From Sinomicrobium kalidii (GTDB taxonomy: Bacteria > Bacteroidota > Bacteroidia > Flavobacteriales > Flavobacteriaceae): a stretch of DNA of 64,000 bases. Position 1 is the stretch's first letter. Each line of letters opens with the position of its first letter. The notes below the pieces were generated by a model. It worked only from the letters and a program-made list of their open reading frames with translations. It did not search any database and had not been told where the DNA came from. This document shows, one piece after another, positions 17,752 through 31,505 of this stretch. The stretch lies in the NCBI RefSeq assembly GCF_021183825.1, contig NZ_CP089211.1:992001-1056000 (forward strand), read 5' to 3'. The position numbers and the translations under genes were made by a program.

Positions 17752-18834
17752 TTACGCTTTTAATATTTTCTCCTGATGGTTAATGGATTCCTGATGAATG
17801 GCCTTGAACATTTTCAACACAAATTCTTCGCTAAGTCCTTTTTCCTGGCCTTCGAGGATCATTCTTCCCAAGATTTCATTCCATCGCTTGCTTTGCAGCA
17901 CGGCAACGTTCTTCTGCTTTTTGAGTGTTCCGATCTCATCTGAAATTCTCATGCGTTTACCCAACGTTTCAACAAGCCCGTTGTCAATAATATCGATCTG
18001 CGCACGGAGCATCCCCAGTTTGTTGTTGTATTCGGCTTCCGCGTCGGTCTCCTTTCTTATTTTGAGGTCTTCCATAATCCGGATAAGGCTTGCGGGGGTT
18101 ACCTGTTGTGCGGCATCACTCCACGCATTGTCCGGATCGGTATGTGTTTCGATCATCAGTCCGTTAAAATTCAGGTCGAGTGCGGTCTGTGCCACATCGA
18201 AGATCATATCGCGTTTACCGGTAATGTGCGACGGATCGCAGATCAACGGCAGGTCGGGAAACCTGTTTTGCAGTTCAATGGCCAGCTGCCACTCGGGAAT
18301 ATTCCTGTACTTGGTTTTTTCATAAGTGGAAAAGCCCCTGTGAATCACTCCCAGTTTCCTGATATCTGCCGAATACAAACGTTCTATACCACCGAGCCAC
18401 AGTGCGAGATCGGGGTTTACCGGGTTTTTCACCAGCACCACCTTGTCCGTTCCTTTCAATGCATCGGCAATTTCCTGCACAATAAACGGGCTAACCGTAG
18501 ACCGGGCACCTATCCACAACAAGTCTACATCGTGTTCCAAAGCCAGTTTTACGTGAGCTGCATTGGCCACTTCGGTGGCCGTGAGCATCCCGGTTTCTTC
18601 CTTGGCTTTTTGCAGCCATTTTAATCCCAGGGCTCCTACACCTTCAAAATTTCCGGGACGTGTTCGGGGTTTCCAGATTCCCGCCCGCAGGTAGGTGACA
18701 TCGCTATCTTTGAGCTCATGCGCTATTTTTAATACCTGTTCTTCGGTTTCGGCACTGCAGGGCCCGGCAATTACCAGAGGGTGATCCAGTCCCAGATCGT
18801 CCAGCCATGCCCTCATCTCTTTCGAATTTTCCAT
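17752..18834 (-). CDS. aroF: Bifunctional DAHP synthase / chorismate mutase (type II)
   Basis: The first ~250 residues are a type I DAHP synthase (PEP + erythrose-4-phosphate to DAHP, entry to the shikimate pathway), with AGPCSAE, GIWKPRTRPGNFEG and CDPSHITGKR. Residues ~265-360 are an AroQ-type chorismate mutase helix bundle (LRAQIDIIDNGLVETLGKRM, SKRWNEIL). In such fusions the mutase domain often also acts as the allosteric sensor. No other chorismate mutase domain is on PheA or TyrA here, so this domain likely serves both branches. It is the fourth gene after the Phe/Tyr attenuator: pheA, aminotransferase, tyrA, then this gene. Confidence 0.96.
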   Translation of the reverse strand: MENSKEMRAWLDDLGLDHPLVIAGPCSAETEEQVLKIAHELKDSDVTYLRAGIWKPRTRPGNFEGVGALGLKWLQKAKEETGMLTATEVANAAHVKLALEHDVDLLWIGARSTVSPFIVQEIADALKGTDKVVLVKNPVNPDLALWLGGIERLYSADIRKLGVIHRGFSTYEKTKYRNIPEWQLAIELQNRFPDLPLICDPSHITGKRDMIFDVAQTALDLNFNGLMIETHTDPDNAWSDAAQQVTPASLIRIMEDLKIRKETDAEAEYNNKLGMLRAQIDIIDNGLVETLGKRMRISDEIGTLKKQKNVAVLQSKRWNEILGRMILEGQEKGLSEEFVLKMFKAIHQESINHQEKILKA

Positions 18835-18948: not shown

Positions 18949-19812
18949 TTATGACGCGGTGACATTCATCCCCTTCAGAATTTCCTTTATCCTGTTGGTG
19001 TTTTCCATCTCGTTGTAAATGGCATTGAAATCACCTTTCTGCATCAATTCCTTGAACTGTTGCAAATTGGCAATATACTCTTCCAGGGTTTCTATGACAT
19101 TGGCCTTGTTCTGCTCGAAAATAGGCGCCCACATGGCCGGTGAACTTTTTGCCAGGCGTACCGTGCTTTCGAATCCACTCCCGGCCATGTCAAAAATATC
19201 GCGTTCATTCTTTTCTTTTTCAATAACCGTCTTTCCCAACATAAAAGAACTGATATGTGACAAATGGGACACATAGGCTATATGCCTGTCGTGAGAGGCG
19301 GGATCCATGTACCGGATACGCATCCCGATATCCGTAAACAGTTTCAGTACTTTTTCCTGAAGCTTAAAAGCGGTCTTTTCCACCTCGCAAATAATATTCA
19401 CCTTGTTTTTATACAGTCCTTTCAGTGCCGCCGAAGGCCCGGAAAACTCCGTACCTGCAATGGGGTGGGCCGCAAGAAAGTTCCTCCGTTTGGGATGGTC
19501 TGCCACCACCTCACAGATCAGTGATTTGGTTGATCCCACATCAAAGACTACGGTATCGTCCCGCACCACGTCCAGGATCCCGGGCAGAAGTTTCATACTT
19601 GTGCTTACCGGTACGGCAACAATAACGGTATCTGCCTTTTCCAGGTCCTTTGGCTGGGCCTTTTTATCAATCAGCCCCAGGTCCAATGCCTGGCTCAGGT
19701 GTTCTTCGTCCGTATCGATACCGTAAACTTCCACATCTTCATACACCGATTTGATATCGAGGGCGAAAGATCCGCCTATCAGTCCGAGGCCTATTACGAA
19801 TACATTTGTCAT
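18949..19812 (-). CDS. tyrA: Prephenate dehydrogenase
   Basis: The enzyme oxidatively decarboxylates prephenate to 4-hydroxyphenylpyruvate on the tyrosine branch, with NAD(P). The ATG at 19812 gives 287 residues beginning MTNVFVIGLGLIGGSFALDI, a Rossmann GxGxxG at the very N-terminus. The upstream extension to 19869 is not homologous in style. FVVHPIAGTEFSGP-like (FLAAHPIAGTEFSGP) and SHLSHISSFMLG are prephenate dehydrogenase motifs. There is no chorismate mutase or ACT domain, unlike the E. coli T-protein; the mutase is on the next gene. Confidence 0.96.
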   Translation of the reverse strand: MTNVFVIGLGLIGGSFALDIKSVYEDVEVYGIDTDEEHLSQALDLGLIDKKAQPKDLEKADTVIVAVPVSTSMKLLPGILDVVRDDTVVFDVGSTKSLICEVVADHPKRRNFLAAHPIAGTEFSGPSAALKGLYKNKVNIICEVEKTAFKLQEKVLKLFTDIGMRIRYMDPASHDRHIAYVSHLSHISSFMLGKTVIEKEKNERDIFDMAGSGFESTVRLAKSSPAMWAPIFEQNKANVIETLEEYIANLQQFKELMQKGDFNAIYNEMENTNRIKEILKGMNVTAS

Positions 19813-19894
19813 TTTTTGTCTGTTTATCGGTCGGAAAAAGGCTAATCCTTTTTCTTTCTTTGTGAACATACGGGCCGTGTTTTCCCGGGAAGGG

Positions 19895-19929: not shown

Positions 19930-21090
19930 TTATATTCTGTTTATGGCTTCTTCTATTTTTTCTTTCGGTACGCACAGTGAAAAACGGATATATCCCTCAC
20001 CGTTTTTCCCGAAAATGGTTCCCGGGGTGATAAAAATACTTTTGTCGTACAGTATTTTATCGATAAATGCTTCTGCCGAATAAGGCACATGGCCATGCGT
20101 TTCCATGGGTAATTTTGCCCAGATAAACATTCCCACTGCATTTTTATCGTATGTACAACCCAGTTTTTCCGCCAGGCGGTATATCAGCTCCCTGCGTTCG
20201 CCATATACCTTGTTGATACCGGCGTACCAGTCTTCCGAACATTGCAATGCTGCCACGGCACCTTTCTGGATACCGTAGAACATGCCACTGTCCATGTTGC
20301 TCTTTACCTTCAGTACGGCGTTGATATTATTTTCACTCCCCAGCACCATCCCCACACGCCATCCGGCCATGTTGAACGTTTTGCTCAGCGAGTTGAGTTC
20401 AAGGGCCATGTCACCGGCCCCTTCCACCCCGAGTATACTGCGCGGGGAATCATTGAGCACAAAGCTGTACGGATTGTCATTGACCAGGAGGATATTATTT
20501 CTCCGTGCAAAAGCAACAAGATCGGTATACAGTTCCTGCGTCCCGTTGGTCCCCGTAGGCATGTGCGGATAGTTGAGCCACATTAACTTAACCCCGGAAA
20601 GGTCTTCTTTTTCGAGCGCCTTGAGGTCCGGCAGCCAGCCGTTACCTTCCGTGAGGTCGTAATACCTGGGTTTCGCACCTACCAGCCTGGTCACGGATGT
20701 ATAAGTGGGATAACCCGGATCGGGGATGAGCACCTCATCGCCCTCGTTCAGGAAGGTCAGTGAAATATGCATGATCCCTTCCTTAGAGCCCATTAGCGGG
20801 AGAATTTCCGTATCCCTGTTCAGTGTAACCCCGAACCGTTCTGCATAAAAATCCTTGATGCTTTCCCGGAGTTCCGGCAATCCCTGGTAGCTCTGGTATT
20901 GATGCGCCAGGCTGTCTTCTACGGAATTCCGCAAAGCGTTTATCACTTCCGGGGCAGGATGGAGATCGGGACTTCCTATCCCCATATTGATCACCGGTTT
21001 TCCTTCCGACATAAGCTGCCTTACCTCCCTCAGTTTCCTGGAAAAGTAGTATTCCTCTATCGTATTTAACCGTTTGGCTACCTCAATCAT
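19930..21090 (-). CDS. Pyridoxal-phosphate aminotransferase (probable aromatic)
   Basis: This 386-residue class I/II aminotransferase has the PLP-binding lysine in SLSKTFNMAGWRVG. Its N-terminus contains INMGIGSPDLHPAPEV, a typical fold-type I start. Its position between pheA and tyrA, overlapping pheA by 4 bases (ATG within the end of pheA), implies that it transaminates phenylpyruvate and 4-hydroxyphenylpyruvate to Phe and Tyr. Sequence alone cannot exclude aspartate or another amino donor preference. It is the second gene of the attenuator-controlled operon. Confidence 0.9.
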   Translation of the reverse strand: MIEVAKRLNTIEEYYFSRKLREVRQLMSEGKPVINMGIGSPDLHPAPEVINALRNSVEDSLAHQYQSYQGLPELRESIKDFYAERFGVTLNRDTEILPLMGSKEGIMHISLTFLNEGDEVLIPDPGYPTYTSVTRLVGAKPRYYDLTEGNGWLPDLKALEKEDLSGVKLMWLNYPHMPTGTNGTQELYTDLVAFARRNNILLVNDNPYSFVLNDSPRSILGVEGAGDMALELNSLSKTFNMAGWRVGMVLGSENNINAVLKVKSNMDSGMFYGIQKGAVAALQCSEDWYAGINKVYGERRELIYRLAEKLGCTYDKNAVGMFIWAKLPMETHGHVPYSAEAFIDKILYDKSIFITPGTIFGKNGEGYIRFSLCVPKEKIEEAINRI

Positions 21091-21914
21091 AATTTTGCAT
21101 TTTTGTATTCTCCCAGTATTTTAAAACTTTCCGTCATGATATCCAGCAGGGATTTCGCCTTTTTAAAGTCGTCATACTTTTCAAAAGTCACGTCTACGAA
21201 AAAGGAATATTTCCAGGGTGTTTCTATAACGGGAAGGGATTGTAATTTGGTCAGATTCAGCCGGCAATCGCTCATTACATTAAGTACGGTAGCCAGGCTT
21301 CCGCGTTTGTGATCGGTCATGAATTTCACCGAGGCCTTGTTTATGTCTTCTTCGGGCAGTACCGAGTTTTTGGTCTGTAAAATAACGAACCGGGTGGAAT
21401 TGTCCCGGATGGTCTGGATATTTTCAGCAAGTATTCCCATACCGAAAAGTTCCGCAGCGGTTTTGCTGGCTATTGCCCCCACGCCTTTAAGGCCGTTCTG
21501 CTGAATTCTCCTCGCTGTCTCTGCCGTATCGGCATCTTCCACGAGTTTTATGTGCGGGAACTGCTTAAAAAACTGTTTACATTGCAGGAGTGCCATGGGA
21601 TGAGAGTACACTTCCCTGAGATCGTCTATTTTCTGTCCCGGCAACGCCATCAGGTTATGGTGGATGTTGACGTAGTGCTCCCCGATAATGTGCAGTTGAT
21701 TATTGTCTATGAGTGCGTAATTGGGGATGATAGACCCTGCTATGGAATTTTCTATGGCCATAACGGCACTGTTTACGGTTTTGTCCAGAAGGCTGTCTAC
21801 CAGAATATCGAAAGAAAGGCATTCCAGGATATCGATATCCTCACTGAAATATTCTCTTGCCACCTGGTGGTGAAAAGATCCTTTAATTCCCTGTATGGCT
21901 ACTTTCCTGTTCAT
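21087..21914 (-). CDS. pheA: Prephenate dehydratase
   Basis: The enzyme converts prephenate to phenylpyruvate, the committed phenylalanine step. The 275 residues comprise the dehydratase domain (MNRKVAIQGIKGSFHHQVAREYF; NSTRFVILQTK with the conserved Thr-Arg-Phe) and a C-terminal ACT domain (GSLATVLNVMSDCRLNLTKL) for phenylalanine feedback. It has no N-terminal chorismate mutase, unlike the E. coli P-protein. It is the first structural gene after the leader peptide and attenuator at 21963-22096 and overlaps the aminotransferase by 4 bases, so it is likely translationally coupled. Confidence 0.96.
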   Translation of the reverse strand: MNRKVAIQGIKGSFHHQVAREYFSEDIDILECLSFDILVDSLLDKTVNSAVMAIENSIAGSIIPNYALIDNNQLHIIGEHYVNIHHNLMALPGQKIDDLREVYSHPMALLQCKQFFKQFPHIKLVEDADTAETARRIQQNGLKGVGAIASKTAAELFGMGILAENIQTIRDNSTRFVILQTKNSVLPEEDINKASVKFMTDHKRGSLATVLNVMSDCRLNLTKLQSLPVIETPWKYSFFVDVTFEKYDDFKKAKSLLDIMTESFKILGEYKNAKL

Positions 21915-21962: not shown

Positions 21963-21990
21963 AAAAAAAAGTCCCGGAAAATCCGGGACT
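21963..21990 (-). terminator. Attenuator terminator of the phe/tyr operon
   Basis: On the minus strand, AGTCCCGGA and TCCGGGACT form a 9-bp stem with a TTT loop, followed by 7-8 T. It lies upstream of pheA (48 bases before its ATG) and downstream of the leader peptide, so it must act as a conditional (attenuator) terminator. Its 5' arm (21984-21989) is complementary to an upstream CGGGAC segment, which defines a competing antiterminator. Confidence 0.9.
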
Positions 21991-22084
21991 CGTCATATAT
22001 TTTTGCATTCAAAATAACTTATAACTGTCCCGTCCTTCCTTTAAAAAAGTAAAAGAAGAAAAAATAAAAGTTCCAGTTATAAGT
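21984..22084 (-). promoter_or_regulatory. Phe/Tyr transcription attenuator, competing helices
   Basis: Three mutually exclusive helices are readable in the transcript. Helix 1:2 is a perfect 11-bp pairing of ACTTATAACTG (22074-22084, leader codons 5-8) with its complement at 22017-22027. Helix 2:3 pairs CGGGAC-A-GTTATA (22020-22032) with TATGAC-GA-GTCCCG (21984-21997), 12 bp with a small internal loop. Helix 3:4 is the terminator. A ribosome stalled on the Phe/Tyr codons (codons 10-18), which follow region 1 directly, would mask region 1 and free region 2 to form the antiterminator. With ample Phe-tRNA and Tyr-tRNA the terminator forms. Confidence 0.85.
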
Positions 22085-22096
22085 AATCTGAGTCAT
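22019..22096 (-). CDS. Phe/Tyr-rich attenuator leader peptide
   Basis: This is a 25-codon open frame with ATG at 22096-22094 and TAA at 22021-22019. Residues 8-18 are Trp-Asn-Phe-Tyr-Phe-Phe-Phe-Phe-Tyr-Phe-Phe. In total there are 7 Phe, 3 Tyr and 1 Trp among 25 residues, and the C-terminus is KGRTGQL. Its position between promoter and attenuator terminator, directly upstream of pheA-aminotransferase-tyrA-DAHP synthase, makes it a regulatory peptide comparable in role to PheL of enterobacteria. The Phe/Tyr codon mix matches an operon that makes both amino acids. There is no obvious Shine-Dalgarno. A minimal ATG-AAA-TAA frame lies just upstream. Confidence 0.88.
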   Translation of the reverse strand: MTQITYNWNFYFFFFYFFKGRTGQL

Positions 22097-22118
22097 TTGT
22101 TTATTTCATTTGACGCTG

Positions 22119-22148
22119 CTAAAGTAATTATAAATTTGAAATAGGCAA
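22119..22148 (-). promoter_or_regulatory. Predicted promoter of the phe/tyr operon
   Basis: On the minus strand, TTG (22148-22146), a 19-base spacer and TACTTTAG (22126-22119) fit the Bacteroidetes pattern TTTG-N19-TAnnTTTG with one or two mismatches. The expected transcript start is ~22113, giving a ~17-base leader before the leader-peptide ATG. Confidence 0.6.
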
Positions 22149-22709: not shown

Positions 22710-23624
22710 ATGTCTATAGAAGTTACCGATATATCCAAGACTTACGGAAACCAAAAAGCCCTGGACGCCGTATCCTTCGCCATACAAAAAGGTGAGATCG
22801 TGGGATTCCTTGGGCCCAACGGTGCCGGAAAATCGACCCTGATGAAGATACTGACCACCTATATTACTGCCGACAGCGGCCGGGCCAGGCTAAATGGTTG
22901 TGATGTGACCACCCGGAAAAAGGAGGTCCAGAAAAGCATCGGGTATCTCCCGGAACACAATCCCTTGTACCTGGATATGTACGTAAAGGAATACCTCGGT
23001 TTCAGTGCTTCCGTATACCGGTCGGCGGGGAAAAGAATCCGGAAAGACCGTATTGCAGAGGTTATCGAACTTACCGGACTTGCGCCGGAGGCTCATAAAA
23101 AGATAGGACAGCTTTCCAAGGGATACCGCCAGCGTGCCGGACTTGCCGCGGCCATGCTGCACGATCCGGAAGTACTTATTCTCGATGAGCCCACTACCGG
23201 CCTTGACCCTAACCAGCTTGTCGAGATCAGGGGACTCATCAGGGACATGGGGAGTGAAAAGACCGTACTGCTCTCCACCCATATCATGCAGGAAGTAGAG
23301 GCTATCTGCGACAGGGTGATCATTATCAATAAGGGAACAATCGCGGCGGACAAAAAACTGGCTTCCCTGAGGGAAGGAACCGCACAAATTATCGAGGTGG
23401 AATTCGATTACCGGGTGGAACCTGTTTTATTGGAAAACCTTCCGAACATCGCTTCAGTAAACAATATTTACGACTTTGTCTACGAACTCCGGTTTGACAC
23501 TTCGAAGGACATGCGGCCGACCGTATTTGATTTTGCCCACGACAACGGGCTAAAGACCCTGCAGCTCAACAAAAAGAACCGGAACCTGGAAAGTCTGTTC
23601 CGGGAATTGACCAAGGCCCAATAA
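22710..23624 (+). CDS. gldA: Gliding-motility ABC transporter ATP-binding protein GldA
   Basis: This 304-residue ABC ATPase has Walker A GPNGAGKST (35-43), signature LSKGY (135-139), Walker B VLILDE (155-160) and the switch His191. Sequence style and length fit GldA, which with the GldF and GldG membrane proteins is required for gliding motility in Flavobacterium. gldF and gldG are not adjacent, which is usual in this family. A C-terminal ~85-residue extension after the ATPase core (LENLPNIASVNNIYDFVYEL onward) is like the substrate-specific tail of GldA and related exporters. Other ABC-2 type ATPases remain possible. Confidence 0.85.
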   Translation: MSIEVTDISKTYGNQKALDAVSFAIQKGEIVGFLGPNGAGKSTLMKILTTYITADSGRARLNGCDVTTRKKEVQKSIGYLPEHNPLYLDMYVKEYLGFSASVYRSAGKRIRKDRIAEVIELTGLAPEAHKKIGQLSKGYRQRAGLAAAMLHDPEVLILDEPTTGLDPNQLVEIRGLIRDMGSEKTVLLSTHIMQEVEAICDRVIIINKGTIAADKKLASLREGTAQIIEVEFDYRVEPVLLENLPNIASVNNIYDFVYELRFDTSKDMRPTVFDFAHDNGLKTLQLNKKNRNLESLFRELTKAQ

Positions 23625-31393: not shown

Positions 31394-31505
31394 TTCGTCA
31401 TCTGTCCCTGTCGGTACAGGGTAGAATTTAGCACCTTCTCCACGAAGGAGGGTTGCTAAGGCTTCACCGGGTCTAGTCCCTCTGCCTTTCTTGATAACTG
31501 CTCAG
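31394..31505 (-). ncRNA. SAM-I (S-box) riboswitch upstream of the metH operon
   Basis: The minus-strand RNA contains the S-box core in order: TTATCAAGAAAGG at the 5' side of P1, GAGGGACTAGACCCGGTGAA, then GCCTTAGCAACCCTCC, GGTGCTAAATTC with its P3 hairpin, and AGATGA closing P1. These match the conserved SAM-I kink-turn, SAM-binding J1/2 and P4 parts. It lies 120 bases before the first metH gene. The expression platform is unclear: a short stem before a T7 run at ~31314-31320 could be a terminator, or control may be translational. Confidence 0.92.

Follow-up and report, generated by a model that had tools for sequence, protein, structure and literature searches.

How does Sinomicrobium kalidii adjust transcription of its genes for phenylalanine and tyrosine synthesis to the supply of these two amino acids? 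The question is raised by the region upstream of pheA in a 64-kb window of its genome (the whole stretch of DNA analyzed here, 64,000 nucleotides), which had been predicted to hold a Phe/Tyr leader-peptide attenuator. Control by a pheA leader is little studied in these bacteria, members of the Bacteroidota, for which unusual promoters and initiation of translation without a Shine-Dalgarno sequence are reported (PMC9723704). In 2010, leader-peptide systems had, to the knowledge of the authors of one study, been shown only in Proteobacteria and Actinobacteria, ermC aside, and that study added a system in Firmicutes (PMC2965389); short frames reminiscent of attenuation leaders are reported for Bacteroides thetaiotaomicron (PMC7366714). 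The original prediction knew of no studied case in the family, a statement that has to be softened, since a 2021 report on Flavobacterium psychrophilum describes strong signs of attenuation by leader peptides ahead of operons for amino-acid biosynthesis, as well as a structured 5′ element before pheA that is conserved in other genera (PMC9723704). No experimental test of leader-peptide attenuation in Bacteroidetes was recognized in the open-licence literature. Earlier computational predictions in Bacteroidetes may exist, and a comparative study of attenuation was reportedly published in 2010. We put the probability that the pheA leader region is a ribosome-mediated transcription attenuator at about 0.9; most likely, a ribosome stalled at the leader tells RNA polymerase to continue.

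The predicted operon stands as described, with its genes named by Pfam (Table 1), and an RsgA gene comes after the gene for DAHP synthase-chorismate mutase. PheA of the window is 81–89% identical to PheA of five Sinomicrobium genomes, its closest named relatives, and the order pheA, aminotransferase, tyrA, and DAHP synthase-chorismate mutase is intact in 12 of 13 named loci, the sequence of the thirteenth (L010) stopping within tyrA. Beyond the family, the neighbors of pheA vary (in loci with ~1.5 kb of downstream DNA): among the 17 leader-bearing class loci counted, seven have both the aminotransferase and tyrA beside pheA, and in five the only match near pheA is DAHP synthase-chorismate mutase. 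As read from its sequence, the operon content of the window matches both Phe and Tyr as putative signals.

Table 1. Features of the pheA leader region and operon of S. kalidii (positions are those of the window).
Feature	Position	Strand	Basis
ABC-transporter gene, divergent, on the other flank of the leader region	22710–23624
Promoter-like TTG-N19-TACTTTAG, whole span	22148–22119	-
-33 element TTG of putative Bacteroidota-type promoter	22146–22148	-	sequence
-7 element TACTTTAG of putative promoter	22119–22126	-	one mismatch to consensus TAnnTTTG (PMC9723704)
Leader peptide ORF, 25 codons, ATG to TAA, MTQITYNWNFYFFFFYFFKGRTGQL	22019–22096	-	sequence and conservation in relatives
Predicted stalling run, codons 8–18, aromatic 10/11	22043–22075	-	sequence; relatives
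Segment 1, partner of 22027–22017	22074–22084	-	sequence; leader folds vs. synonymous recodings
Segment 2, overlaps leader stop codon	22017–22032	-	pairing analyses
Segment 2, antiterminator portion CGGGACAGTTATA	22032–22020	-
Segment 2, portion for 1:2 helix CAGTTATAAGT	22027–22017	-
1:2 helix, 11 perfect base pairs	22084–22074 / 22027–22017	-
Segment 3 TATGACGAGTCCCG, antiterminator partner, includes core of terminator 5′ arm	21984–21997	-
Intrinsic terminator, 10-pair stem and T8	21963–21991	-	sequence; consensus stem over 34 loci
Terminator arms, nine Watson–Crick pairs and one G-U	21991–21982 / 21978–21969	-
T8 tract of terminator	21970–21963	-
pheA, prephenate dehydratase	21087–21914	-	PF00800
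Class I/II aminotransferase	19930–21090	-	PF00155
tyrA, prephenate dehydrogenase	18949–19869	-	PF02153, PF20463
DAHP synthase fused to chorismate mutase	17752–18834	-	PF00793, PF01817

The anatomy of the leader region is that of an attenuator, and most of it was described correctly from the letters: the putative promoter, the leader with 7 Phe, 3 Tyr, and 1 Trp, its aromatic cluster at residues 8–18, and the perfect 11-bp helix between segments 1 and 2 (1:2 helix) are all present. An intrinsic terminator stands between the leader and the first gene, pheA; its stem, predicted at 9 bp with a T run, has a G-U pair in addition to nine Watson–Crick pairs. The antiterminator, formed by segments 2 and 3, had been given as a 12-bp helix; its pairs exist, although they are arranged as two six-pair blocks (CGGGAC/GTCCCG, and GTTATA/TATGAC with one G-U) with a small internal loop between them, not as a continuous helix. 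When both strands of the window were scanned for ATG frames of 10–45 codons with at least six aromatic residues in nine, the leader was the sole match. Codon runs for Phe and Tyr, taken without the other features, were rejected as a genome-wide leader signal, since a reversed control did as well: the genome has seven occurrences of a 7-codon F/Y pattern (three of these overlapping the leader) vs. nine of the reversed pattern, and none of three other F/Y-run sites, judged by eye, resembled a leader before an amino-acid gene. The nucleotide run by itself is thus not rare; the combination of run, terminator, and position upstream of pheA is far from chance.

Conservation of this combination was assessed with one detector, the same for all 139 pheA loci, covering up to 600 nt upstream of pheA. 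The detector accepted frames of 10–45 codons with at least five aromatic codons in nine, beginning with ATG, or with another start codon if at least eight in nine were aromatic, and followed no more than 95 nt past the stop codon by a terminator (a hairpin of -7 kcal/mol or better plus a T run). The class sample comprises the genomes with a PheA match, minus one (G040); that from other classes comprises 25 of about 96 PheA matches, picked to spread across families. Five duplicates (L015–L019, of L002–L006) were removed beforehand, overlap removal being limited to these, and three loci had less than 600 nt of upstream DNA (L110, L178, and L182, the first two negative). All six loci of the genus have a Phe/Tyr leader plus terminator upstream of pheA, as do 49/51 of the rest of the family (55/57 for the family overall), 7/9 from other families of the order, and 33/48 from other orders of the class. 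This gives 95 of 114 pheA loci, and 21 of 30 families, for the class, and at least six codons in nine are aromatic in 90 of the 95. The same detector accepted 5/570 dinucleotide shuffles and 2/548 control windows from other loci, all at five aromatic codons in nine. It found no leader plus terminator in 19 of the 114 class loci, and neither leader nor terminator in the six pheA loci of one family, f58 (L169, L171, L172, L174, L176, and L181). In other classes of the phylum, 3 of the 25 pheA loci examined were positive, and these are the three with the most similar PheA (44–45% identical). Because the PheA query matched just 52 of 198 genomes in an evenly drawn class sample, the conservation count covers genomes with a recognizable PheA.

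A promoter-like motif accompanies the leader: of the 55 family loci with a leader, 50 have the -7 motif TAnnTT[TA]G no more than 60 nt upstream of its ATG, vs. 3 of 55 control windows. In five of the 98 positive pheA loci, Phe/Tyr leaders are repeated in series, and a separate terminator follows each of them: three leaders in L085, and two each in L088, L089, L189, and L196.

What is conserved in the short frame, rich in codons for the amino acids that the operon produces, is both the frame itself and the choice of amino acids. The densest 9-codon stretches of 104 attenuators (936 codons) hold 436 Phe, 296 Tyr, and 30 Trp codons; the stretches were picked for aromatic content, which biases the Phe and Tyr frequencies upward. 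That Leu is nearly missing from the other residues (8 codons, vs. 439 in frame 2 of the same DNA) is not explained by a choice based on aromatic content, and, as judged from these sequences, selection appears to act on amino-acid identity. The run is also U-rich at the RNA level, and could accordingly be a site for an RNA-binding protein or for Rho, its reading frame being incidental. We consider this extremely improbable given the Leu counts in the two frames, though the aromatic-based pick biases that comparison, and given the conserved geometry of terminator and segment 2.

The second line of evidence for attenuation is pairing between the end of the leader and the terminator. A complement of the terminator 5′ arm was found at the leader end in all 36 leader-bearing loci first examined; because the best helix was searched for in each, it is the controls that carry the weight. 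Terminator arms vary between lineages, and the leader end varies along with them, with compensatory changes in the core pairs (CGGGAC/GTCCCG, CGAGAC/GTCTCG, AGGACT/AGTCCT, and, in L043, GAGGCTTTTA/TAGAAGCCTC). In a swap test on 74 loci (of 107, those accepted by an earlier detector), leader ends scored a mean of 18.5 with their own arm vs. 13.8 with the arms of other loci (0 of 5000 permutations); with one locus per distinct arm (49 loci), the scores were 18.4 vs. 13.3 (0 of 10000 permutations). The peptide does not account for this complementarity: own tails scored 17.9, vs. 12.7 when synonymous codons encoded the same tail peptide, in a comparison of 99 of 104 attenuators that left out the five with tails under three codons (Wilcoxon P 4e-17); singly, 35 of the 99 reach P 0.05. 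The leader RNA is likewise more stable than its synonymous recodings (mean z -2.1; 70/104 below -1.5), in support of a helix inside the leader that is under selection. RNAalifold, applied to a MAFFT alignment of 34 sequences, recovered the terminator alone; pairing was tested per locus because the alignment leaves segment 2 displaced by one base from lineage to lineage.

The position of segment 2 is tied to the aromatic run. In a search from the start codon to the terminator, two of 104 attenuators dropped out because no helix reached the set score; in the other 102, the start of segment 2 lies a median of 11 nt past the last aromatic codon (96/102 within 6–18 nt), and this spacing is tighter (MAD 2) than that to the stop codon (MAD 5). 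In 59 of 101 cases, all of segment 2 falls between -18 and +14 nt relative to the stop codon; in the remaining cases, a ribosome at the stop codon may cover it just partly. Between them, conservation of the frame and the terminator (in 55/57 family and 95/114 class loci) and pairing that follows compensatory changes support the attenuator reading of the layout, and these were the features that the original prediction had proposed to look for in relatives.

Folding of the states that the ribosome would impose gives a more qualified picture, in models that cannot represent pseudoknots. With the RNA folded up to the terminator loop, before completion of the terminator, the arm pairs upstream in 102/104 attenuators when the ribosome is in mid-run and in 2/104 when it is at the stop codon. 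In these models the contrast is that expected of the switch, although much of it is geometry common to the swapped sets: attenuators with swapped terminators show upstream pairing in 856/1040 and 69/1040, respectively. At equilibrium with the whole terminator, the antiterminator wins in 31/104 with the ribosome in mid-run (29/1040 when swapped), a count too weak for equilibrium folding to serve as proof of the switch, and in 24/104 when the ribosome occupies the last aromatic codon; in the sequence of the window itself it wins at the former position and not at the latter. Mutual exclusion of antiterminator and terminator is thus borne out by the swap and synonymous-codon tests and is weak at equilibrium. 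Because the antiterminator wins the equilibrium in few attenuators, most species must rely on a switch governed by kinetics. The same counts bear on whether the terminator could be constitutive, setting a fixed low level of operon transcription while the leader is translated without switching: the terminator is the equilibrium fold in 73/104 despite a stalled ribosome. That the leader end complements its own arm beyond the constraint of the peptide, and tracks changes in that arm, makes constitutive termination highly unlikely.

Less certain is the role that the classic layout gives to the 1:2 helix. The helix is present, and the full RNA of the window folds into this helix plus the terminator; RNA that begins at 22050 or 22040 adopts the antiterminator fold, and in RNA that begins at 22070 the terminator still forms. 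The pre-terminator snapshots, however, do not show the arm protected in untranslated RNA: it pairs upstream in 82/104 attenuators, including that of the window (365/1040 when swapped). The pattern of an arm open without a ribosome and at the stop codon, and paired when the ribosome is stalled, occurs in 20/104, more rarely than in the swapped sets (503/1040). On these two results, the 1:2 helix is at most a putative protector of the terminator.

From the anatomy and the tests of pairing, we infer the following course of events for the attenuator in the cell. RNA polymerase would start no more than about 20 nt before the leader, as placed by the -7 box, and a ribosome would follow it along the leader frame. 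With charged Phe-tRNA and Tyr-tRNA plentiful, the ribosome would reach the stop codon and cover segment 2, the terminator would form, and transcription would end before pheA. If Phe-tRNA or Tyr-tRNA were scarce, the ribosome would stall in the aromatic run, leaving segment 2, which starts just downstream, to pair with the 5′ arm of the terminator; the terminator would be blocked, and transcription would proceed into the operon that makes Phe, Tyr, and the precursor common to both. In a variant of the same mechanism, compatible with attenuation, the leader would sense Phe alone, with Tyr codons as tolerated neighbors. Phe exceeds Tyr by 436 to 296 in the runs, and two of the three serial leaders of L085 are without Tyr; that both residues occur in 102 of 104 leaders, and that the operon makes both amino acids, renders the Phe-only variant rather doubtful, and both amino acids probably count in the attenuator.

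Among the closest known systems is the enterobacterial pheA leader (RF01859 Phe_leader; pheL), which in its classic model likewise has a Phe-rich leader, alternative helices, and an intrinsic terminator before pheA. The present case differs in its mixed Phe/Tyr run and in an operon that includes tyrA and DAHP synthase, and resemblance in sequence was not found: the best score here against RF01859 is 22.7 bits (E 0.11), below the gathering score of 55. None of the known Rfam leader families fits; at the gathering threshold, the window yields only a SAM riboswitch elsewhere (31395–31500, minus strand, 83.9 bits), with putative metH- and metF-like frames, judged by eye, ~1.2 kb downstream on the minus strand (30192–26435). 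Bivalent leaders are familiar from Escherichia coli thrL (Thr/Ile) and the ilv leaders, in which, as here, one leader reads several amino acids produced by the operon; the pair here is Phe and Tyr, and we know of no other leader with that pairing. The F. psychrophilum element lies before the same gene in the same family, and the passages that describe it do not give the leader, the helices, or the distribution (PMC9723704). The serial leaders of relatives resemble the tandem attenuators of Salmonella mgtCBR in having more than one short frame in a single leader region (two in mgtCBR), and differ from them in repeating the same amino-acid signal (PMC3641672).

Other amino-acid operons were scanned in 13 genomes. 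By scan count, a leader plus terminator was observed before hisG in 11/12 loci (the one missed, L119, being recovered by another scan), before trpE-family genes in 11/14 (two of the three misses, L164 and L165, are weak family matches), and before ilvD in 8/13. The S. kalidii genome itself encodes a His-rich leader, MNRIVLHHYHFYTCTQAR, with a terminator before hisG (L121), and a Trp-rich leader, MQIILNNAWWWSNLRQNVVS, with a terminator before trpE (L158). Two serial Ile/Val-rich leaders, each with a terminator, precede its ilvD (L141), and double Ile/Val leaders also occur in L139, L140, L142, and L144 (five of six genomes of the genus, by scan).

Upstream of thrA, the first scan found no such leader in 14 loci, but 12 of these reached insufficiently upstream. 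Six of eight stretches (L205–L208, L211, and L212) show a frame rich in Thr and Ile codons, with the ending ...TP(L/F/C)G(V), the last codons of which fold at the stop codon into an ACCCC/GGGGT hairpin. No T-run terminator was seen with this frame, the frame itself was unseen in L209 and L210, and no ATG was found for it in the stretch from S. kalidii (L205); a different mechanism is possible for this frame.

Because one genome has Phe/Tyr, His, Trp, and doubled Ile/Val leaders, and serial attenuators occur in several lineages, we lean towards leader-peptide attenuation as a main, largely undescribed, control of amino-acid operons throughout this class of Bacteroidota. If true, class-wide attenuation would require ribosomes close behind RNA polymerase, despite the unusual promoters and initiation without a Shine-Dalgarno sequence in these bacteria. 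Because the switch needs ribosome and polymerase in step, its breadth makes transcription–translation coupling in the phylum directly testable, and the effect of repeating one signal on the response can be studied in a natural setting, the consecutive attenuators. For aromatic amino-acid synthesis in Bacteroidota, the pheA leader provides a regulatory switch that is concrete and can be tested, and comparison of relatives shows that attenuation of the classic kind occurs widely beyond the groups from which it was originally reported.
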